This document shows, piece after piece, positions 1-34,968 of a DNA stretch of 35,636 nucleotides. Source of the DNA: Candidatus Gastranaerophilales bacterium (GTDB lineage: Bacteria; Cyanobacteriota; Vampirovibrionia; Gastranaerophilales; Gastranaerophilaceae); assembly GCA_947631645.1 (NCBI GenBank), contig CANRMD010000019.1, positions 1 to 35,636 of the forward strand, given 5' to 3'. Under the pieces are notes generated by a model, which saw only the letters and a list, made by a program, of their open reading frames with translations, had not been told where the DNA came from and searched no databases. Made by a program: the position numbers and the translations under genes. Position 1 is the stretch's first letter; each line of letters opens with the position of its first letter.

Positions 1-639
1 TGATATATCACCTGTTTTATTTTCAAGAAACCCTATGTTCCAACAAAAATTTTGATAATCTTGAAACGATGAATTTTCATTTAAAGCATTTTTATTATCT
101 GAATAAAATTTAAAGTGTGAAAAGTTATTTTTACCTATAAATTCTAAGATTTTATCTTTATCATTTTGAACATTAACATAATTGTTTAATGCTGTTTCTA
201 TTACAAAATTTAAGTCATTTATCGCAATTAAAACAAATAACATTTTGTATATTTTTTTAATTAATCGAAATGGAATTTTTTGCTCATTTTTAATTAATCT
301 TTCCATCTCCTCAATGAATATAGGCAGTTTTATATAAATAATATCAATAATTTTTTTAATTCTTTTCAAAAATTTATCATTATTAAATTTTTGAAATGCC
401 GTTAAATGAATTAATTTTCTTGTTTGATTAGTATATTCTATTACCAAGTTATCAATTTTTTTTATATAAACCTTTTTTGATATGCCAAGCAATTTTGGTA
501 CATAATAGCAAGCATCCGCATAAATTTGTATAAGTAATTGACAATTAGTCAGATACAGTAATGGAAAATGAAGATATAAAAAACCTAAATTTTCAACACC
601 GTTATTATAAATGCTTTGTTGTATACCAATATAGTTCAT
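1..639 (-). CDS. Hypothetical protein, C-terminus beyond the left edge
   Basis: This frame is open for 213 codons on the minus strand, from an ATG at 639 to position 1 with no stop, so the gene runs off the window. The visible product is rich in Lys, Ile, Asn and Phe. It has an alternating hydrophobic/basic middle (about residues 85-150) that looks helical, and no signal peptide. I recognise no family. An in-frame TAA lies 24 nt upstream, so the ATG is the likely start, although a TTG two codons after that stop is possible. There is no Shine-Dalgarno; a TATAAT ends 6 nt before the ATG, pointing to a leaderless message. It lies 111 nt downstream of the SGNH-like gene on the same strand but appears to have its own promoter. 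Confidence 0.7.
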   Translation of the reverse strand, partial: MNYIGIQQSIYNNGVENLGFLYLHFPLLYLTNCQLLIQIYADACYYVPKLLGISKKVYIKKIDNLVIEYTNQTRKLIHLTAFQKFNNDKFLKRIKKIIDIIYIKLPIFIEEMERLIKNEQKIPFRLIKKIYKMLFVLIAINDLNFVIETALNNYVNVQNDKDKILEFIGKNNFSHFKFYSDNKNALNENSSFQDYQNFCWNIGFLENKTGDIS

Positions 640-645
640 AAAATT

Positions 646-651
646 ATTATA
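646..651 (-). promoter_or_regulatory. -10 box, leaderless type
   Basis: TATAAT on the minus strand, separated by exactly 6 nt (AATTTT) from the ATG at 639. No convincing -35 is seen at 16-18 nt. The same -10/N6/ATG geometry recurs at several genes in this window. Confidence 0.5.
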
Positions 652-6093: not shown

Positions 6094-6147
6094 ATAATAA
6101 CATAAATATAATTATCTTGATAATTGAATGAAATGTATTATTATAAT
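6094..6147. promoter_or_regulatory. Divergent promoter region, lysA operon / exported protein gene
   Basis: On the minus strand TGT-TATTAT (hexamer at 6094-6099) is an extended -10 for lysA. On the plus strand TTGATA (6117-6122), N19, TATAAT (6142-6147) faces the gene at 6152, ending 4 nt before its ATG. Between the two -10 boxes lies a short inverted repeat, AATTAT-CTTG-ATAATT, which could be an operator. Confidence 0.45.
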
Positions 6148-6151
6148 AGAT

Positions 6152-6706
6152 ATGAAGAAAATATTGACAATTTTATTATTAATAATCGGATTAAACGCAT
6201 ACGCAAACTCTGATTACGATGCACTATACGAAGCTGCAGAACCGTTTCAATCAAAATTGTATAATGATATAGATCCGTTTGAAGATCAAGATATGATAAT
6301 GTATGCTTGGTCGCCGTATCCGCTGTTCAGGACATCCGCAAATCTTTATTTTAAAGACATGAAAATTGAACCCGGATATTATTCTTTAACCCCAAGAGAA
6401 CTTGGCGGAAAATATTATGTCCTTTTTAAACAAGCAGGCAAAGTCCAATTTATTATACCTGCAGCAAAAAAAGAAGCTACCCCGCTTAACTTTTATGAAG
6501 CTAACACCCCTAAAATGAAACAAACTAAATGGCAAAAATTTGCATCGGGCGTCAGAAAAAAGTTTTATGATACGGCAAAAAGTTCCATGAGGTCTACACC
6601 GCCTAATTCCTTAGTAAATATTGAAAGTGATTCAAAATATATAGTCATGGTTTTATATTACGGCAATGATAAGTTTACCGTACTATTCAGAAGAACACCA
6701 TATTAA
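6152..6706 (+). CDS. Exported protein of unknown function
   Basis: A 184-aa protein with a clear signal peptide: MKK, a hydrophobic run, and a cleavage site after AYA (residue 18). The mature part is mixed alpha/beta with many aromatics (YAWSPYPLF, PGYYSLTPRELGGKYYVLFKQ) and a basic stretch at about residues 120-145. I do not recognise the family. An ATG 24 nt upstream is in frame, but the start at 6152 puts the Lys-Lys and hydrophobic core right at the N-terminus, and TATAAT lies only 4 nt before it, within the longer version. No Shine-Dalgarno is seen. The 3' end overlaps the convergent zinc-ribbon gene by 4 nt, sharing a TTAA. It probably acts in the periplasm or at the outer membrane. Confidence 0.75.
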   Translation: MKKILTILLLIIGLNAYANSDYDALYEAAEPFQSKLYNDIDPFEDQDMIMYAWSPYPLFRTSANLYFKDMKIEPGYYSLTPRELGGKYYVLFKQAGKVQFIIPAAKKEATPLNFYEANTPKMKQTKWQKFASGVRKKFYDTAKSSMRSTPPNSLVNIESDSKYIVMVLYYGNDKFTVLFRRTPY

Positions 6707-14790: not shown

Positions 14791-14822
14791 ATTATACACT
14801 AAAATAGTTAATAGTGTATAAT
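14791..14822. promoter_or_regulatory. Symmetric divergent promoter, manC operon / anmK
   Basis: Perfect 11-bp inverted repeat ATTATACACTA (14791-14801) / TAGTGTATAAT (14812-14822), 10 nt apart. Each arm carries an outward TATAAT: complement(14791-14796) for manC and 14817-14822 for anmK, the latter ending 6 nt before the anmK ATG. The repeat may also bind a regulator. Confidence 0.65.
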
Positions 14823-14828
14823 AGCTTT

Positions 14829-15932
14829 ATGAAAAGTTATAAAACAATAATTTCTTTAATGTCGGGAACGTCTGTTGACTCTATTGATGCTTGTTTAGTC
14901 AAAATATATGATAACCTTACCTTTGAAATATCAGACAGTTATTCACTTGAATATCCTAAAATAACAAGGGAACGAATATTAAATCTTGCAAACAATAAAG
15001 GAAGTATAAAAGATGTATGTGAAACAAACTTTGAAACAGGTAATTTATTTGCAAAATGTGTAAATATGCTTATAGATAAGGCAAAAATTAAAAAAGAAGA
15101 TGTTGATTTTATTTCTTCACACGGGCAAACAATATGTCATATTCCCGATAAAAAAAGCACATTACAAATCGGAGATATATCCGTCATCTCTCAAAAAACA
15201 GGTATAATGACAATAGGAGATTTCAGACCTAAAGATATGGCAGCTAACGGGCAAGGTGCTCCGTTAGTTCCCTTTGCGGATAAAATATTATTCGGATTGG
15301 ATAAAAACAGGCTAATTCAAAATATCGGCGGAATTTCCAATGTTACTGTTTTATCAAAAGATTGTGATATTTTTGCCTTTGACAACGGGGTCGGCAATAT
15401 GCTTATTGACTATTTTATGCAAAAATTATTCGACCTGCCATACGATAAAGACGGGCAAACAGCACTTAAAGGTAAAGTTGATACAAAATGGCTGGATGAA
15501 CTTTTAAATGAACCTTATTATAAACTTTTACCCCCAAAATCTACAGGCAGAGAACTTTTTAATAAAGATTATGCCGAAAAAATTTATAAAACCGCACCTT
15601 CTGATAAATACGCAGTTATTGCAACAATTACCGCATTAACTGCAAAAACCATTGCAGATTCATATAAAAATTTTATTTTTACCAAAACAAATATTGAAGA
15701 AATTGTCCTTGGCGGGGGAGGAGCTTATAATAAAGCAATAATAAAATTTTTAAATGAATATTTACCTGAAATCAAAATAAAAACACATGAAGATTACAAT
15801 ATCCCCAATAAACTTAAAGAATGCCTCGCTTTTGCTTATTTGGGATATTTTACGGTTTTAAAGAAACCTAATAATATACCCTCTTGTACGGGTGCTGATT
15901 GTCCCGTAATTATGGGTAAAATTTCATATTAA
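14829..15932 (+). CDS. anmK: Anhydro-N-acetylmuramic acid kinase
   Basis: Phosphorylates and opens 1,6-anhydro-MurNAc released from cell-wall turnover, giving MurNAc-6-P. ASKHA-fold motifs: SLMSGTSVDSIDACLV (residues 9-24), SSHGQTICH, STLQIGDIS, FRPKDMAANGQGAPLVPFAD, QNIGGISNVT, FDNGVGNMLID and the C-terminal LGGGGAYNKAI. An ATG 15 nt earlier is in frame but falls inside the promoter; TATAAT ends 6 nt before the ATG at 14829 and no Shine-Dalgarno exists, so a leaderless 367-aa start is chosen. Its stop codon abuts the stop of convergent dapB with no gap. Confidence 0.95.
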   Translation: MKSYKTIISLMSGTSVDSIDACLVKIYDNLTFEISDSYSLEYPKITRERILNLANNKGSIKDVCETNFETGNLFAKCVNMLIDKAKIKKEDVDFISSHGQTICHIPDKKSTLQIGDISVISQKTGIMTIGDFRPKDMAANGQGAPLVPFADKILFGLDKNRLIQNIGGISNVTVLSKDCDIFAFDNGVGNMLIDYFMQKLFDLPYDKDGQTALKGKVDTKWLDELLNEPYYKLLPPKSTGRELFNKDYAEKIYKTAPSDKYAVIATITALTAKTIADSYKNFIFTKTNIEEIVLGGGGAYNKAIIKFLNEYLPEIKIKTHEDYNIPNKLKECLAFAYLGYFTVLKKPNNIPSCTGADCPVIMGKISY

Positions 15933-27356: not shown

Positions 27357-28268
27357 ATGAACATACCAAAAATAAGTCAAATATTTTCAACATACAGAAC
27401 TGCGGGTTTACCGGTTCAAAAAAATCAAGGAATAAGCGTTCCCACTCGCCCGATAAGTGACACTTTTGTATTAAGCAATGCGGAAGAAAAAGAAATAGTA
27501 AAAAAAATATTTTCACGCACAAGAAAATTTTCCATAAAAAATTATAAAAAATTGAACGAAAAAGAACTTGAAGCGATGAGAACAATATGCACAAATGATA
27601 TGTTTGCAAAAGAAGCGGCAGATATTAATCTGGATATGGCACTTATTCTAAAACCCGAACTTGATAAAAAATACGGTGAAGATAACTACGTATTTGTATC
27701 AATAGGAAGATCACCATCGGGAATTGCAAGAGTTTTTGAGTTTATGGGCGTTGAGACAAAATATCTTCCAATCAGCGGATTAAGAAATTACCCCGATGAA
27801 GACTGCGTTATAGGCGGAGCTGAGGGACTTAGAGAATATGGAAAATTCTTGAAAGAACAAGGCATCACTAATATCGATATTGATTTTTCAGATAAAAAAT
27901 ATCTCTTTTTTGATTATACATATTCCGGTAAATCTTTAGATTACTTTAAAAAATTAATAAAAAGATATTACCGAGTAAACCAACCTAACATGGAATTTAT
28001 AAGTTTGAACGGAGAATTAAATAATTCAGTTGATGATAGCAGTTATAAAAAGAGAATGGTGCAAGAATATATAGAAGAATTCCTAAGATCATCTCATATG
28101 CAAGAATTTTCCGGAATTAGCGAACTTAGAGTTAAAAATTTATTTAAAATCAATGAGTGTAAAAAATTTGAATCAGATAAAGCCAAAAAATTTAATTTTT
28201 TACTTATAGATGAACTAAACAGACGGCATTTATTAAAAGATAATCCTAAAAATAAAAAATCATTGTAA
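27357..28268 (+). CDS. Hypothetical protein with PRTase-like core
   Basis: A 303-aa soluble protein. A low-complexity leader of about 45 residues (many Thr, Ser, Pro) is followed by helices, then an alpha/beta core: YVFVSIGRSPSGIARVFEF (about 112-130), KYLPISGLRNYP and YLFFDYTYSGKSLDYFKKL. The last resembles the PRPP loop of type I phosphoribosyltransferases (hydrophobic strand, acidic residue, then a T/S-G-K/R-S/T loop), but the double acidic pair is reduced to one Asp. A charged C-terminus follows. No Shine-Dalgarno is seen; TTTAAC, a poor -10, ends 6 nt before the ATG. It is divergent from the parvulin operon and lies upstream of miaB. Function unknown; the fold is an inference. Confidence 0.75.
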   Translation: MNIPKISQIFSTYRTAGLPVQKNQGISVPTRPISDTFVLSNAEEKEIVKKIFSRTRKFSIKNYKKLNEKELEAMRTICTNDMFAKEAADINLDMALILKPELDKKYGEDNYVFVSIGRSPSGIARVFEFMGVETKYLPISGLRNYPDEDCVIGGAEGLREYGKFLKEQGITNIDIDFSDKKYLFFDYTYSGKSLDYFKKLIKRYYRVNQPNMEFISLNGELNNSVDDSSYKKRMVQEYIEEFLRSSHMQEFSGISELRVKNLFKINECKKFESDKAKKFNFLLIDELNRRHLLKDNPKNKKSL

Positions 28269-28279
28269 TTTGTTTAAAG

Positions 28280-28285
28280 TATAAT
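28280..28285 (+). promoter_or_regulatory. -10 box of miaB, leaderless type
   Basis: TATAAT ending exactly 6 nt (AAGAAT) before the miaB ATG, in the 23-nt gap after the preceding gene. No Shine-Dalgarno is possible between them. Confidence 0.5.
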
Positions 28286-28291
28286 AAGAAT

Positions 28292-29614
28292 ATGAAAAAA
28301 TTATACATTCAAACACTTGGCTGTCAAATGAACAAATCAGACTCTGAAAGGATTGCGGGAATTCTGTCAGAGCATAATTATATTGAAACCGACAATGAAA
28401 AAGAAGCTGATTTGTTAATTATAAACACTTGTTCAATAAGACAACTATCAGCAGATAAAGCCTACAGCCAGCTTGGAGTTTGGGGCAAAATGAAAAAAAA
28501 CAGACCGAACATAAAAATAGGTATATGTGGATGTGTAGCACAGCAAGATAAAGCAAATATAAGGAAAAGAGCACCTTATGTTGATTTGATTTTTGGCACA
28601 CATAATATATATGAATTACCTGAACTTATTAAAAGAATTGAAAACGATGAAAAAGTATGTTCGATTACTAACAATCCCGTTATAAAAGACCAAAATGATT
28701 TTAAAATTATACGCAAAGACTCTGTAAATGCGTGGATACCGATTATTGAGGGCTGTAACAAATTTTGTACATACTGCGTTGTACCTTTTACAAGGGGCAG
28801 AGAACGTTCAAGATTTCCGAAAGAAATTTTAAAAGAAGCTCAAAATATTATTAAAGAAGGTTTTAAAGAAATTACACTTTTAGGTCAAAATGTAGACAGC
28901 TACGGTAAAGATTTGGGGGATAAGGATATAACACTTGCAAATCTGTTAAGAGAACTAAATAAACTTGAGGGGGATTTTAGAATTCGTTTTGTTACGTCCT
29001 ACCCATCTGATATCACTGATGACCTTATTGATGCCGTTGATGAATGCGAAAAAGTATGTAAATATTTCCATATCCCTATGCAGTCGGGAAATTCACGCAT
29101 ATTAAAGGAAATGAACAGACGATATACTAAAGAACAATACTATGAAATAGTTTCTAAAATACGAAAAAGATTTGAAAATGTAACTATAACAAGTGATTTT
29201 ATAGCGGGTTTTCCGTCTGAAACAGAAGAAGAATTTCAAGACACTCTCGATGCAATAGATGAACTGGAACTTGATTATTCAAATACTGCAGCATATTCGC
29301 CGAGAGAATTTACAAAAGCAGGCAGAATGGTTGATAAATTTATACCTGAAAATATAAAATACGAAAGACTTGAACGTCTAAACGAAAAAAACAGGGAAGT
29401 ATGTTTAAAATCTAATGAAAAATTCACGGGAAAAGTGTTGAAAGTTCTTGTTGAAGGGAAAACGGAAAAAGAAGGTAAAATAACCTTAAATTCCCGTGCA
29501 GATAATAACAAAATAGTTCATTTTGAATCAAATCAATACAATATCGGTGATTTTGTAAATGTTAAAATAACAAAAGCTCAAACATGGTGCCTATATGGTG
29601 AACCTGTAGAATAA
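28292..29614 (+). CDS. miaB: tRNA-2-methylthio-N6-dimethylallyladenosine synthase MiaB
   Basis: Radical-SAM methylthiotransferase that adds the 2-methylthio group to i6A37 of tRNAs. The N-terminal cluster ligands are Cys11 (LGCQMNKSDSE), Cys47 (NTCSIRQ) and Cys81 (GCVAQQ). The radical-SAM cluster is Cys155, Cys159 and Cys162 (GCNKFCTYCVVPFTRGRERS). A C-terminal TRAM RNA-binding domain (about 370-440) completes the 440-aa protein. NTCSIRQ and GCVAQQ favour MiaB over RimO or MtaB. It seems to have its own leaderless promoter. Confidence 0.95.
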   Translation: MKKLYIQTLGCQMNKSDSERIAGILSEHNYIETDNEKEADLLIINTCSIRQLSADKAYSQLGVWGKMKKNRPNIKIGICGCVAQQDKANIRKRAPYVDLIFGTHNIYELPELIKRIENDEKVCSITNNPVIKDQNDFKIIRKDSVNAWIPIIEGCNKFCTYCVVPFTRGRERSRFPKEILKEAQNIIKEGFKEITLLGQNVDSYGKDLGDKDITLANLLRELNKLEGDFRIRFVTSYPSDITDDLIDAVDECEKVCKYFHIPMQSGNSRILKEMNRRYTKEQYYEIVSKIRKRFENVTITSDFIAGFPSETEEEFQDTLDAIDELELDYSNTAAYSPREFTKAGRMVDKFIPENIKYERLERLNEKNREVCLKSNEKFTGKVLKVLVEGKTEKEGKITLNSRADNNKIVHFESNQYNIGDFVNVKITKAQTWCLYGEPVE

Positions 29615-29635
29615 TTTTATAATTTCGGCATGTCA

Positions 29636-29644
29636 TGCTAATCT
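29636..29644 (+). promoter_or_regulatory. Extended -10 box before the binding-protein gene
   Basis: TGC-TAATCT; the hexamer (29639-29644) ends exactly 6 nt before the ATG at 29651. The -35 is poor, as often with extended -10 promoters. It supports the later of two in-frame ATG codons (29645 and 29651). Confidence 0.4.
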
Positions 29645-29650
29645 ATGATT

Positions 29651-31507
29651 ATGAAAAAATTTTTGAAAATATTATTAATACTTGTAGTGATTTCTCTTGT
29701 TTTATGTTCATGTTTCAGGATTGACAGAGGCAGTCAGGATATTGAGACAAAACAAAAAGAAACTTCAAATAATGTTAATGAAAATAAAACTTATAAACCT
29801 TACGCTACAAAACTTGTAAACGGCACAGAATACAGAATGTCGCGTTCGGGGCAAGGTAAATACGGCGGACAAATAGTAACTTCAACAATAGGCGAAGGCC
29901 CTAAGACATTTAATCCCTGGGTATCAAAAGATGCAACATCCTCAGAAATCGGGGAATTAATGTATGATTCTCTATTCTCAACAGACCCCGACAGTGGTGA
30001 AGTTATTCCTTATCTTGCTAAAGAAATGAAAGTTTCTCCCGACTTAAAAACATACACAATAACCCTTAGAAAAGGGGTTAAATGGTCGGACGGAACGGAA
30101 ATTACTGCCGATGATGTAGTCTTTACTTGGAATGATATTATTCTTGCAGGTTTCGGCAACACATCACTTCGAGATTCAGTTCTTATTGACGGAGAATATC
30201 CTAAAGTAAAAAAAATTGATAAATATACAGTTGAATTTAAGATTAAAAAACCGTTTGCACCGTTTCAAAGGTTTGTTGGTACACAAATCGCCCCCGCACA
30301 TATTTTTAAACCCGTTATAAAAAAGGGAAAAAGATATTTTGACTCTTACTTGGGAACAACTGTTAAACCTAAAGATATTGTTGCATCAGGTGCTTTTTTA
30401 TTGGAAGAATACGTACCCGCTCAAAGAGTTGTATTAAAAAGAAACCCAAATTATTATTCAATGGATGATAAAGGTCAAATTCTTCCTTATATTGATAAAT
30501 ACGTTATATTAATTGTCGGAGATTTAAATAACGAATTACTAAAATTTGAAGCGGGAGAACTTGATACAATTTCTGTCAGAGGCAAAGATTTACCAAGGTT
30601 TAAGGAGAAACAGAAAAAAGGTAATTTTAAAATATATAATCTCGGTCCGAATACGGGCACCATGTTTTTAGCATTCAATTTAAATACAAGAAAAAACAAA
30701 GATAACAAAGATTACGTTAATCCCGTAAAACAAAAATGGTTTAATGATATCAATTTTAGAACTGCAATAGATTATGCCATTGACAGAACATCAATGGTAA
30801 ATAACGTTACAAACGGAGTTGCTCAACCCCTTTTTACGGCAGAATCATTATCATCAATATATTTAAATGAAAAACTTGCCTCAGGTCATCAACGTGATAT
30901 TGATTATGCAAAATCTCTTTTGAAAAAATCAGGTTTTTATTGGGACAAAAACGGTATACTTCATGATAAAGACAATAATAAAGTAGAATTTGACCTTTAT
31001 ACAAATGCAGGTCAAACAGAACGCGAAGCATGCGGAGTTATGGTAAAAGAAGATTTAAAAGATTTAGGTATTACCGTTAACTTTAAACCCATAGAATTTA
31101 ATACATTGGTAAGTAAAATAATGTCCACATCAGACTGGGATATGGTATTAATGGGCCTAACAGGCAACCCGCTTGAACCTCACAGCGGAAAAAATGTTTG
31201 GTATTCAAAAGGACATCTTCATTTATTTAATATGAGATTTCAAGGTGATAAAAATGATACTCTGCTTGATTGGGAAAAAGAACTTGATGAATTAATAGAA
31301 CAAGGAGCACTTGAATTAGACTATAATAAAAGAAAAGCCGTATATGATAAATATCAGCAAATTATTTATGATGAACGCCCAATAATTTATTTGTATTCAC
31401 CTTTAACTATTACGGCGGTCAGAAATAAAATAAAAAATTTATACCCGACTGCCCTCGGAGGTACAATGCATAACTTAAACGAATTGTATATTGATGAAAA
31501 AGATTGA
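29651..31507 (+). CDS. Peptide/oligopeptide-binding lipoprotein (SBP family 5)
   Basis: A 618-aa extracytoplasmic solute-binding protein of an ABC importer of the OppA/DppA type. It has a lipoprotein signal peptide, MKKFLKILLILVVISLVLC, with the lipid Cys in LCSC (about residue 21), then a polar linker. Family hallmarks follow: ELMYDSLFSTDPDSGEVIPYLA, a DLKTYTITLRKGVKWSDG stretch, and ITADDVVFTWNDI; later FRTAIDYAIDRTSMV and RPIIYLYSP. No permease or ATPase genes are nearby, so it must share a transporter encoded elsewhere or act alone. The ATG at 29651 is preferred on promoter spacing. Its end overlaps the next gene by 14 nt. Confidence 0.92.
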   Translation: MKKFLKILLILVVISLVLCSCFRIDRGSQDIETKQKETSNNVNENKTYKPYATKLVNGTEYRMSRSGQGKYGGQIVTSTIGEGPKTFNPWVSKDATSSEIGELMYDSLFSTDPDSGEVIPYLAKEMKVSPDLKTYTITLRKGVKWSDGTEITADDVVFTWNDIILAGFGNTSLRDSVLIDGEYPKVKKIDKYTVEFKIKKPFAPFQRFVGTQIAPAHIFKPVIKKGKRYFDSYLGTTVKPKDIVASGAFLLEEYVPAQRVVLKRNPNYYSMDDKGQILPYIDKYVILIVGDLNNELLKFEAGELDTISVRGKDLPRFKEKQKKGNFKIYNLGPNTGTMFLAFNLNTRKNKDNKDYVNPVKQKWFNDINFRTAIDYAIDRTSMVNNVTNGVAQPLFTAESLSSIYLNEKLASGHQRDIDYAKSLLKKSGFYWDKNGILHDKDNNKVEFDLYTNAGQTEREACGVMVKEDLKDLGITVNFKPIEFNTLVSKIMSTSDWDMVLMGLTGNPLEPHSGKNVWYSKGHLHLFNMRFQGDKNDTLLDWEKELDELIEQGALELDYNKRKAVYDKYQQIIYDERPIIYLYSPLTITAVRNKIKNLYPTALGGTMHNLNELYIDEKD

Positions 31508-34240: not shown

Positions 34241-34271
34241 ATTATACCACTTTTACCCCCCCCCAAGGCAA
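34241..34271 (-). promoter_or_regulatory. Putative phase-variable promoter with G9 spacer
   Basis: Minus strand: TTGCCT (complement 34266-34271), a 19-nt spacer containing nine consecutive G (complement 34256-34264), then TGG-TATAAT (hexamer complement 34241-34246), an extended -10. Loss of two G would give the optimal 17-nt spacer. Confidence 0.6.
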
Positions 34272-34290: not shown

Positions 34291-34319
34291 TTGACAATAT
34301 GTTGTTTTTAGACTACAAT
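34291..34319 (+). promoter_or_regulatory. Promoter of the toxin-antitoxin operon
   Basis: Consensus TTGACA (34291-34296), exactly 17 nt, then TACAAT (34314-34319). The -10 ends 6 nt before the toxin ATG at 34326. This is the best promoter in the window. Confidence 0.8.
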
Positions 34320-34325
34320 AATAAT

Positions 34326-34664
34326 ATGAAAGAAATTCTTACTTATAAAACTTCAAATGGAAAATGTCCTTATGATGATTGGTTTTATAAACTGGATAAA
34401 GCCACACAAGCAAGAATTGAAAAAAGACTTGAACGAGTTGAAGAAGGTAATTATGGAGATTTCAAAAAATTAGATAGTGAAATTTCCGAATTACGATTTA
34501 CATTTGGAAGCGGTTATAGAATTTATTTTACTGAAACAAATGATATTATAGTTATTCTATTATGTGCCGGAGATAAAAGCACGCAAACGGTAGATATTAA
34601 AATGGCTAAAAAATACTTAGATGATTTAATTGAAAGGAATAAATTAAATGAAATTAAATATTGA
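34326..34664 (+). CDS. RelE/HigB-family toxin (Gp49-like, addiction module killer type)
   Basis: A 112-aa toxin of the RelE/ParE superfamily, of the type described as a phage Gp49-like addiction-module killer. Seen: DDWFYKLDKATQARIEKRL, ERVEEGNYGDFKKL, SELRFTFGSGYRIYF (the conserved E-L-R ... G-x-R-I-Y-F) and LLCAGDKSTQTVDIKMAKKY. Members usually cut mRNA on the ribosome; catalytic residues are not certain here. A longer frame begins at 34299 but lies inside the promoter; with TACAAT ending 6 nt upstream and no Shine-Dalgarno, the ATG at 34326 is chosen and translation is probably leaderless. Toxin-first order, overlapping the antitoxin by 17 nt, is normal for HigBA-like pairs. Confidence 0.92.
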   Translation: MKEILTYKTSNGKCPYDDWFYKLDKATQARIEKRLERVEEGNYGDFKKLDSEISELRFTFGSGYRIYFTETNDIIVILLCAGDKSTQTVDIKMAKKYLDDLIERNKLNEIKY

Positions 34665-34968
34665 TAAACTAAAAAAGAATACAATTCCTTATGAAGAACT
34701 TTCAGAAAAACATTTTCTTGATGTAGAATTTCAGAAAGAATATTTAAACCTTTCTTTATCAGAATATATTACTGATGGTGATTTTAACAAATTTTTTAAA
34801 TCATTAGAAAAAGTTATTAAAGCAAGAGAAAGTGTTTCATCCTTCGCTAAAAAAGTAAATATAGATAGAACTAATCTATACACCTTATTTAATGGTGAAA
34901 AAATACCAAGACTTGATACAATTGCAAAAATATTAAAAGAACTCGGTTTTTCAATTCAAGTTGCTTAA
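34648..34968 (+). CDS. HigA-like antitoxin with HTH domain
   Basis: A 106-aa antitoxin paired with the upstream toxin. The N-terminal third (EYLNLSLSEYITDGDFNKFFKSL) matches the usual start of addiction-module antidote proteins. The C-terminal half is a Cro/C1-type helix-turn-helix: SVSSFAKKVNIDRTNLYTLF then NGEKIPRLDTIAKILKELG. It neutralises the toxin and probably represses the operon promoter. Unlike the toxin it has a Shine-Dalgarno, AAAGGA, about 10 nt before the ATG, located within the toxin gene. Confidence 0.92.
   Translation: MKLNIDKLKKNTIPYEELSEKHFLDVEFQKEYLNLSLSEYITDGDFNKFFKSLEKVIKARESVSSFAKKVNIDRTNLYTLFNGEKIPRLDTIAKILKELGFSIQVA

Follow-up and report, generated by a model that had tools for sequence, protein, structure and literature searches.

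A -10 promoter element six nucleotides before the start codon predicts leaderless genes in the Gastranaerophilales

The window (the whole 35,636-nucleotide stretch of DNA that was analysed) corresponds to contig C19 in the 1.87 Mb genome (~30% GC) of a Candidatus Gastranaerophilales bacterium, a member of the gut lineage commonly known as Melainabacteria. Five of its genes, one of them on the minus strand, carry a -10-like hexamer that ends 6 nucleotides before the ATG, and a sixth has a weaker candidate. The sites and genes concerned are the following.

637..651, minus strand: TATAAT (651-646), six nucleotides, ATG (639)
6139..6154, plus strand: weaker candidate by sequence, TATTAT ending 7 nucleotides before the ATG at 6152
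14817..14831, plus strand: TATAAT (14817-14822), six nucleotides, ATG (14829) of anmK
14829..15932, plus strand: anmK, anhydro-N-acetylmuramic acid kinase, predicted leaderless (Pfam AnmK, 338 bits)
28280..28294, plus strand: TATAAT (28280-28285), six nucleotides, ATG (28292) of miaB
28292..29614, plus strand: miaB-like radical SAM/TRAM methylthiotransferase, predicted leaderless (Pfam UPF0004, Radical_SAM, TRAM)
29636..29653, plus strand: extended -10 TGC-TAATCT (29636-29644), six nucleotides, ATG (29651)
29651..31507, plus strand: extracellular solute-binding protein family 5, predicted leaderless (Pfam SBP_bac_5, 270 bits)
34291..34328, plus strand: TTGACA (34291-34296), 17-nucleotide spacer, TACAAT (34314-34319), six nucleotides, ATG (34326)
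34326..34664, plus strand: Gp49-like (DUF891) putative toxin, predicted leaderless (Pfam Gp49)
34648-34968: putative antitoxin (HTH) paired with the toxin at 34326 (Pfam dnstrm_HI1420)

Re-inspection of the sequence gives a spacing of 6 nucleotides in all five of the genes for which a preliminary description of this DNA had named it. The gene on the complement from 639 has no Pfam match and extends past the edge of the window. The gene at 6152 is likewise without a Pfam match; a TATAAT ends 4 nucleotides upstream of it, as had been described, and a TATTAT additionally ends 7 nucleotides upstream. The hexamer of the gene at 27357, previously called poor, is TTTAAC, which is no -10 element. For the solute-binding protein, the start at 29651 is preferred to that at 29645 because the latter falls in the spacer between the -10 and +1, and for the toxin the ATG of a longer open reading frame (34299) sits within the TTGACA-N17-TACAAT promoter of the gene at 34326. 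The first ATG is therefore not always the true start, which lowers the number of open reading frames (ORFs) counted below with a hexamer at 6 nucleotides. Just upstream of the toxin promoter there is a run of nine C residues on the plus strand (34256-34264), where a minus-strand ORF with Kelch matches begins.

The window alone proves nothing, as its count of TATAAT-N6-ATG is within chance. There are four matches against 2.03 expected, and 15 of 100 shuffled sequences reach four. The match at 29618-29632, just upstream of the promoter at 29636, does not mark a gene start: its reading frame ends in a stop three codons after the ATG. The leaderless inference therefore needed a genome-wide test. 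The count in the window, the low GC content of the genome and the frequency of loose hexamers at other distances would all be consistent with a peak that is an artefact of AT-rich composition or of the choice of starts.

The sample from the same genome consists of 40 stretches and the window, in all 835 kb of the 1.87 Mb. To keep the choice of start blind to the promoter, the first ATG was taken as the start of every ORF of 100 codons or more (676 ORFs). A family sample was built from one stretch in each of 20 other genomes of the window's family (303 ORFs), and patterns were counted in 59 whole genomes of the family, including the window's own, drawn evenly from a larger group. Within the genome's own ORFs, TATAAT ends 6 nucleotides before the ATG in 23 of 676 cases and occurs 0-5 times at every other distance from 0 to 19; when distances up to 45 nucleotides are included, the largest count away from 6 is 9. 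With the window left out the signal is retained, at 21 of 643 ORFs against a mean of 2.2 at the other distances from 0 to 19 (Poisson p ~4e-14). The family sample has 9 of 303 ORFs at 6 nucleotides and at most 3 at other distances. The genome-wide distance scan that the preliminary description had called for thus returns a sharp TATAAT peak at 6 nucleotides, both in the genome itself and in its family. The whole-genome counts have the same form: across the 59 family genomes TGNTATAAT-N6-ATG occurs 1200 times, the N5 spacing 298 times and the N7 spacing 553 times, while the reversed patterns occur 72 times (reversed N6) and 122 and 144 times (the other two). N6 exceeds both neighbouring spacings in 53 of the 59 genomes and does not in the other six.

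The looser hexamer TANNNT forms a peak of local extent only, with 56 of the 676 ORFs at 6 nucleotides and 9-25 at distances 2-5 and 7-10. Elsewhere it is found 44 times at distance 0, 43 times at 1 and up to 49 times further upstream (49 at 30). The enrichment of TANNNT at 6 nucleotides that had been anticipated therefore stands relative to adjacent distances, but the same hexamer is in a similar range of frequency further off. If all in-frame ATGs near ORF starts are taken, 6 nucleotides is the highest distance in the genome (59, others at most 51) and in the family (38, others at most 28). No peak at 6 nucleotides is seen in the genome for GTG, TTG, CTG, ATA, AAG or out-of-frame ATG, and GTG, TTG and CTG starts show none in the family sample either. 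AUG is thus the preferred start codon next to a -10 at 6 nucleotides, as looked for in leaderless genes, the exception being a GTG in one orthologue of the gene at 29651. Composition cannot yield a TATAAT peak one base wide, the N5 spacing, the reversed patterns, the other codons and the other frames give none, and the starts were picked blind to the hexamer. An artefact of composition or start choice was accordingly rejected on the counts by codon and frame, outside the window and in whole genomes, and we give it practically no weight.

Several properties of the hexamer at 6 nucleotides point to a promoter. A group of 55 ORFs of the genome, the window included, has a -10-like hexamer at this distance. 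A -35 element (at least five of six matches, spacer 16-18) accompanies 8 of the 55 and none of 110 shifted placements, and in the family sample 7 of 31 against 1 of 62 shifted placements; the remaining 47 of the 55 promoters in the genome lack a good -35. The TGN of an extended -10 occurs in 15 of the 55, compared with 78 of 954 hexamers elsewhere upstream (family: 11 of 31 against 42 of 410). A pyrimidine, the preferred base before a transcription start site, is found at -1 in 42 of the 55 against 333 of 621 (family: 28 of 31 against 158 of 272). By its -35, its extended -10 and its initiator base, the hexamer thus qualifies as a predicted promoter, with the limit that the set of miaB loci, where 22 of 134 ORFs have a hexamer at 6 nucleotides, has TGN in 2 of 22 and a -35 with five matches in 1 of 22, which is no clear enrichment of either. 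A further pattern, TTG with a fixed 17-nucleotide spacer, gave 7 against 3 in the genome and was set aside as too few to use.

An AT-rich hexamer near a start codon could also act in the mRNA, as an unstructured start region or a binding site for S1, with transcription starting further upstream. AT-rich start regions and the use of S1 have been proposed for genes without Shine-Dalgarno sites in Cyanobacteria and others (PMC5397173, in excerpt). Spacing precise to one base, TGN, a -35 element and the preference for divergent genes described below are features of promoters, and a translation signal of this kind is very improbable as the explanation.

A 4-mer resembling a Shine-Dalgarno (SD) site is present in 275 of the 676 ORFs overall and in 2 of the 55 with a hexamer at 6 nucleotides. 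In the latter the hexamer itself occupies the place of the SD; the low content is partly forced by its position and is not counted as evidence, and the absence of an SD was rejected as an independent argument for leaderless genes. As to the earlier remark that genes within operons keep clear SD sites, close co-directional genes have an SD-like 4-mer in 111 of 249 cases and divergent genes in 74 of 200, a small difference. Of 28 relatives, 6 gave a match to an anti-SD pattern that was not found in the window's own assembly. One of these matches (G239) is unlike a 16S end, and the pattern is taken to show no more than that it exists in some parts of the order.

The reading that we prefer is that sigma70-type promoters in the Gastranaerophilales start transcription at the A of the ATG and give leaderless mRNAs, which on this sequence evidence we regard as very probable. 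In standard sigma70 numbering, a distance of 6 nucleotides places the A of the ATG at +1. The TATAAT peak is thus a -10 element at a fixed distance that would put +1 on the start codon, as sought for leaderless genes. In this scheme the -10 hexamer of a sigma70-type promoter ends 6, sometimes 7, bases upstream of the start codon, RNA polymerase would initiate on the A of the ATG, and the resulting mRNA would have no 5' leader. Translation would then follow the leaderless route, with a 70S ribosome binding the 5'-terminal AUG (PMC9031893, in excerpt). The predicted leaderless genes would run beside ordinary genes with SD-like sites. The spacing peak, the promoter marks, the restriction to ATG and the conservation among orthologues all favour the leaderless reading first suggested for this DNA.

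The genomic context of these sites is only partly that of first genes. In the genome and family sample together (context counts exclude ORFs with no upstream neighbour in the stretch), a -10 at 6 nucleotides is found in 39 of 306 divergent genes against 15 of 316 close co-directional genes (p 0.0005; 12 of 249 of the latter in the genome itself). Co-directional genes 26-60 nucleotides from their neighbour have one in 7 of 40 cases (family: 5 of 23). Those more than 60 nucleotides away have one in 5 of 150 cases (family: 4 of 81), no higher a rate than in the close ones, although many of them should stand first in an operon. A simple first-gene rule does not lead one to expect this, and it counts against the leaderless reading. 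The proposed association with genes that stand first in an operon is seen in divergent genes, whereas co-directional genes at this distance are not enriched.

The share of genes involved depends on the background chosen. Counts at 6 nucleotides exceed those at distances 3, 4, 5 and 10 by 40-45 of 676 ORFs, and exceed the mean over 20-45 nucleotides by ~20 (TANNNT, 56 against 34.9). By such excesses the predicted leaderless share would be about 3-7% of ORFs. These values are simple excesses; a mixture model intended to estimate the share had instead come to track overall AT-richness and was dropped. The common mode of which the preliminary description had spoken would then be a regular minority mode beside ordinary genes. 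Twenty of the 23 genes with TATAAT at 6 nucleotides were scanned with Pfam (the two window genes were scanned separately and the gene at 4552 in L010 was left out), and 19 of the 20 match. They are a mixed housekeeping set that includes uvrC, mnmG, a pterin-binding enzyme, an FAD synthetase/riboflavin kinase, a hemN-like gene and a type II secretion protein.

The layout is retained in orthologues of the window genes, to different degrees. The gene at 29651 has orthologues in 58 of 59 genomes, and among the best 30 loci, its own included, 29 have an ATG near the aligned start. Of these ATG-start orthologues, 28 of 29 carry TGN-TANNNT at 6 (22) or 7 (6) nucleotides. The orthologue left out (L256) has a GTG start and also carries TGN-TANNNT at 6 nucleotides. 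For miaB the best 29 loci have at least 63% protein identity and are mostly from Candidatus Gastranaerophilales, with some from Candidatus Avigastranaerophilus or labelled 'Cyanobacteria bacterium'; after removal of one without the N-terminus and six without an ATG at the aligned start, 22 remain, or 23 with the window. An exact TATAAT is present in 18 of the 23 aligned starts, at 6 (12) or 7 (6) nucleotides, and the other five consist of two hexamers with one mismatch at 6, one TATAAT at 9 and two with none. Identity further upstream averages 0.40, indicating that the flanks have diverged. The miaB loci without an ATG at the aligned start (L068, L069, L071-L074) also lack the usual -10 layout, and miaB in this subgroup may follow another gene directly. 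The third gene, anmK, matches in 51 of 59 genomes. Its best 30 orthologues have a near-consensus -10 at 6 nucleotides in 12 cases and at 7 in 6, while no other distance up to 30 nucleotides has more than 3, so that about a third or more of them are without the layout.

The spacing of 'exactly 6 nt' claimed for the window is accordingly correct at the named genes, but varies between 6 and 7 in their orthologues. This sliding, together with the excess of N7 over N5 across the family, is in line with a second reading, in which the promoters are real and transcription starts 1-3 bases before the ATG, giving ultra-short leaders and near-leaderless mRNAs. It also accommodates the broader spacing in another order of the class (f3), described below. 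In the window's family, on the other hand, TATAAT peaks at 6, which would give the A at +1, and a pyrimidine most often precedes that A. We consider ultra-short leaders possible but rather unlikely, and start at the A of the ATG remains the preferred reading.

Both the window's family (f1) and a neighbouring family (f2) belong to the Gastranaerophilales. In f2 (3 genomes) the N6 pattern has 28 occurrences against 3; an ORF sample from this family, with TATAAT at 6 nucleotides in 1 of 106, is too limited in size for a peak to emerge. Across 9 genomes from five further families of the order the counts are 32 against 19, a weak excess, and across 11 genomes of f3 they are 28 against 23. In 498 ORFs of f3 (L151-L166, L187-L204), TANAAT is found 22, 13, 12 and 14 times at 6, 7, 8 and 9 nucleotides, and twice each at 5 and 10. 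This spread of 6-9 nucleotides suggests leaders of 0-3 nucleotides. SD-like 4-mers are present in 42 of 219 ORFs in the first f3 sample, against the 275 of 676 in the window's genome. Genomes of the same phylum outside the class have, by inspection of the table, pattern counts similar to their controls. A phylum sample (20 genomes, 266 ORFs) has no TATAAT at 6 nucleotides and TANNAT in 4, where the mean is 1.0; with a GC content of 0.52 it is a weaker control. Among 242 ORFs at miaB loci of other bacteria, mostly Bacillota, TATAAT was not found at 6 nucleotides. As a positive control, 120 annotated starts of the D. radiodurans plasmid MP1 have TANNNT 8 times at 6 and 5 times at 7 nucleotides, and 48 starts of E. 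coli K-12 have it once at 6 and never at 7. The predicted layout with a -10 at 6 nucleotides is characteristic of the window's family and, by pattern counts, of f2. A wider proposal is that (near-)leaderless transcription is regular across the non-photosynthetic class, at 6(-7) nucleotides in f1 and f2 and at 6-9 nucleotides with scarcer SD-like sites in f3, and much rarer in photosynthetic Cyanobacteria; this we put forward tentatively, with slightly more doubt than confidence.

A -10 element adjacent to the start codon is an arrangement that is already known, for example in Deinococcus-Thermus, where PMC12340547 describes a TANNNT, usually located 6-7 bp before the ORF, as the -10 for leaderless mRNA, beside a separate class of SD genes. 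There the signal is on ~30% of ORFs, a share that the window's genome does not reach, and is a loose TANNNT of which TACACT is the commonest form. The Gastranaerophilales differ in the predicted 3-7% of ORFs by excess, in a full TATAAT often with TGN and in being an AT-rich gut lineage, as judged from sequence. Similarly, in the portion of Zheng 2011 consulted (PMC3160421), TA-led leaderless genes across bacteria have a Pribnow-like signal ~10 bp upstream of the translation start; leaderless genes are given for 207 of 953 bacterial genomes, Cyanobacteria are not named among those groups in that portion, and many cyanobacterial genomes are said to use neither SD-led nor leaderless genes. Published accounts of Cyanobacteria differ on this point. 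PMC5397173 refers to reports in which the proportion of leaderless genes is high, PMC6091082 gives 19 leaderless gene start sites in Synechococcus elongatus UTEX 2973, and PMC5607370 holds leaderless mRNAs likely to be present in Prochlorococcus (all in excerpt), so that leaderless transcripts are reported or held likely in photosynthetic relatives. In mycobacteria, leaderless mRNAs are, as here, a regular mode beside leadered ones (PMC4633059, PMC3898074, both in excerpt), although the evidence there is from RNA sequencing.

No report of leaderless genes in the Gastranaerophilales lineage was found among the open-licence papers listed. If the prediction holds, a gut relative of Cyanobacteria would join the bacteria in which leaderless genes are regular. 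The rule of a -10 at 6-7 nucleotides would help to assign start codons and promoters in metagenome-assembled genomes, of which this lineage has many, and orthologous genes make it possible to trace across genera how the -10 is gained, lost or shifted by one base.

One further arrangement was observed in stretch L007 of the window's genome (11501-11600), where uvrC (start 11561, plus strand) and a CxxCxxCC-domain gene (start 11531, minus strand) are divergent with 29 bp between their ATGs. A TATAAT lies 6 nucleotides before each ATG, forming two back-to-back predicted leaderless promoters, and the -35 region of each would fall inside the opposite gene.
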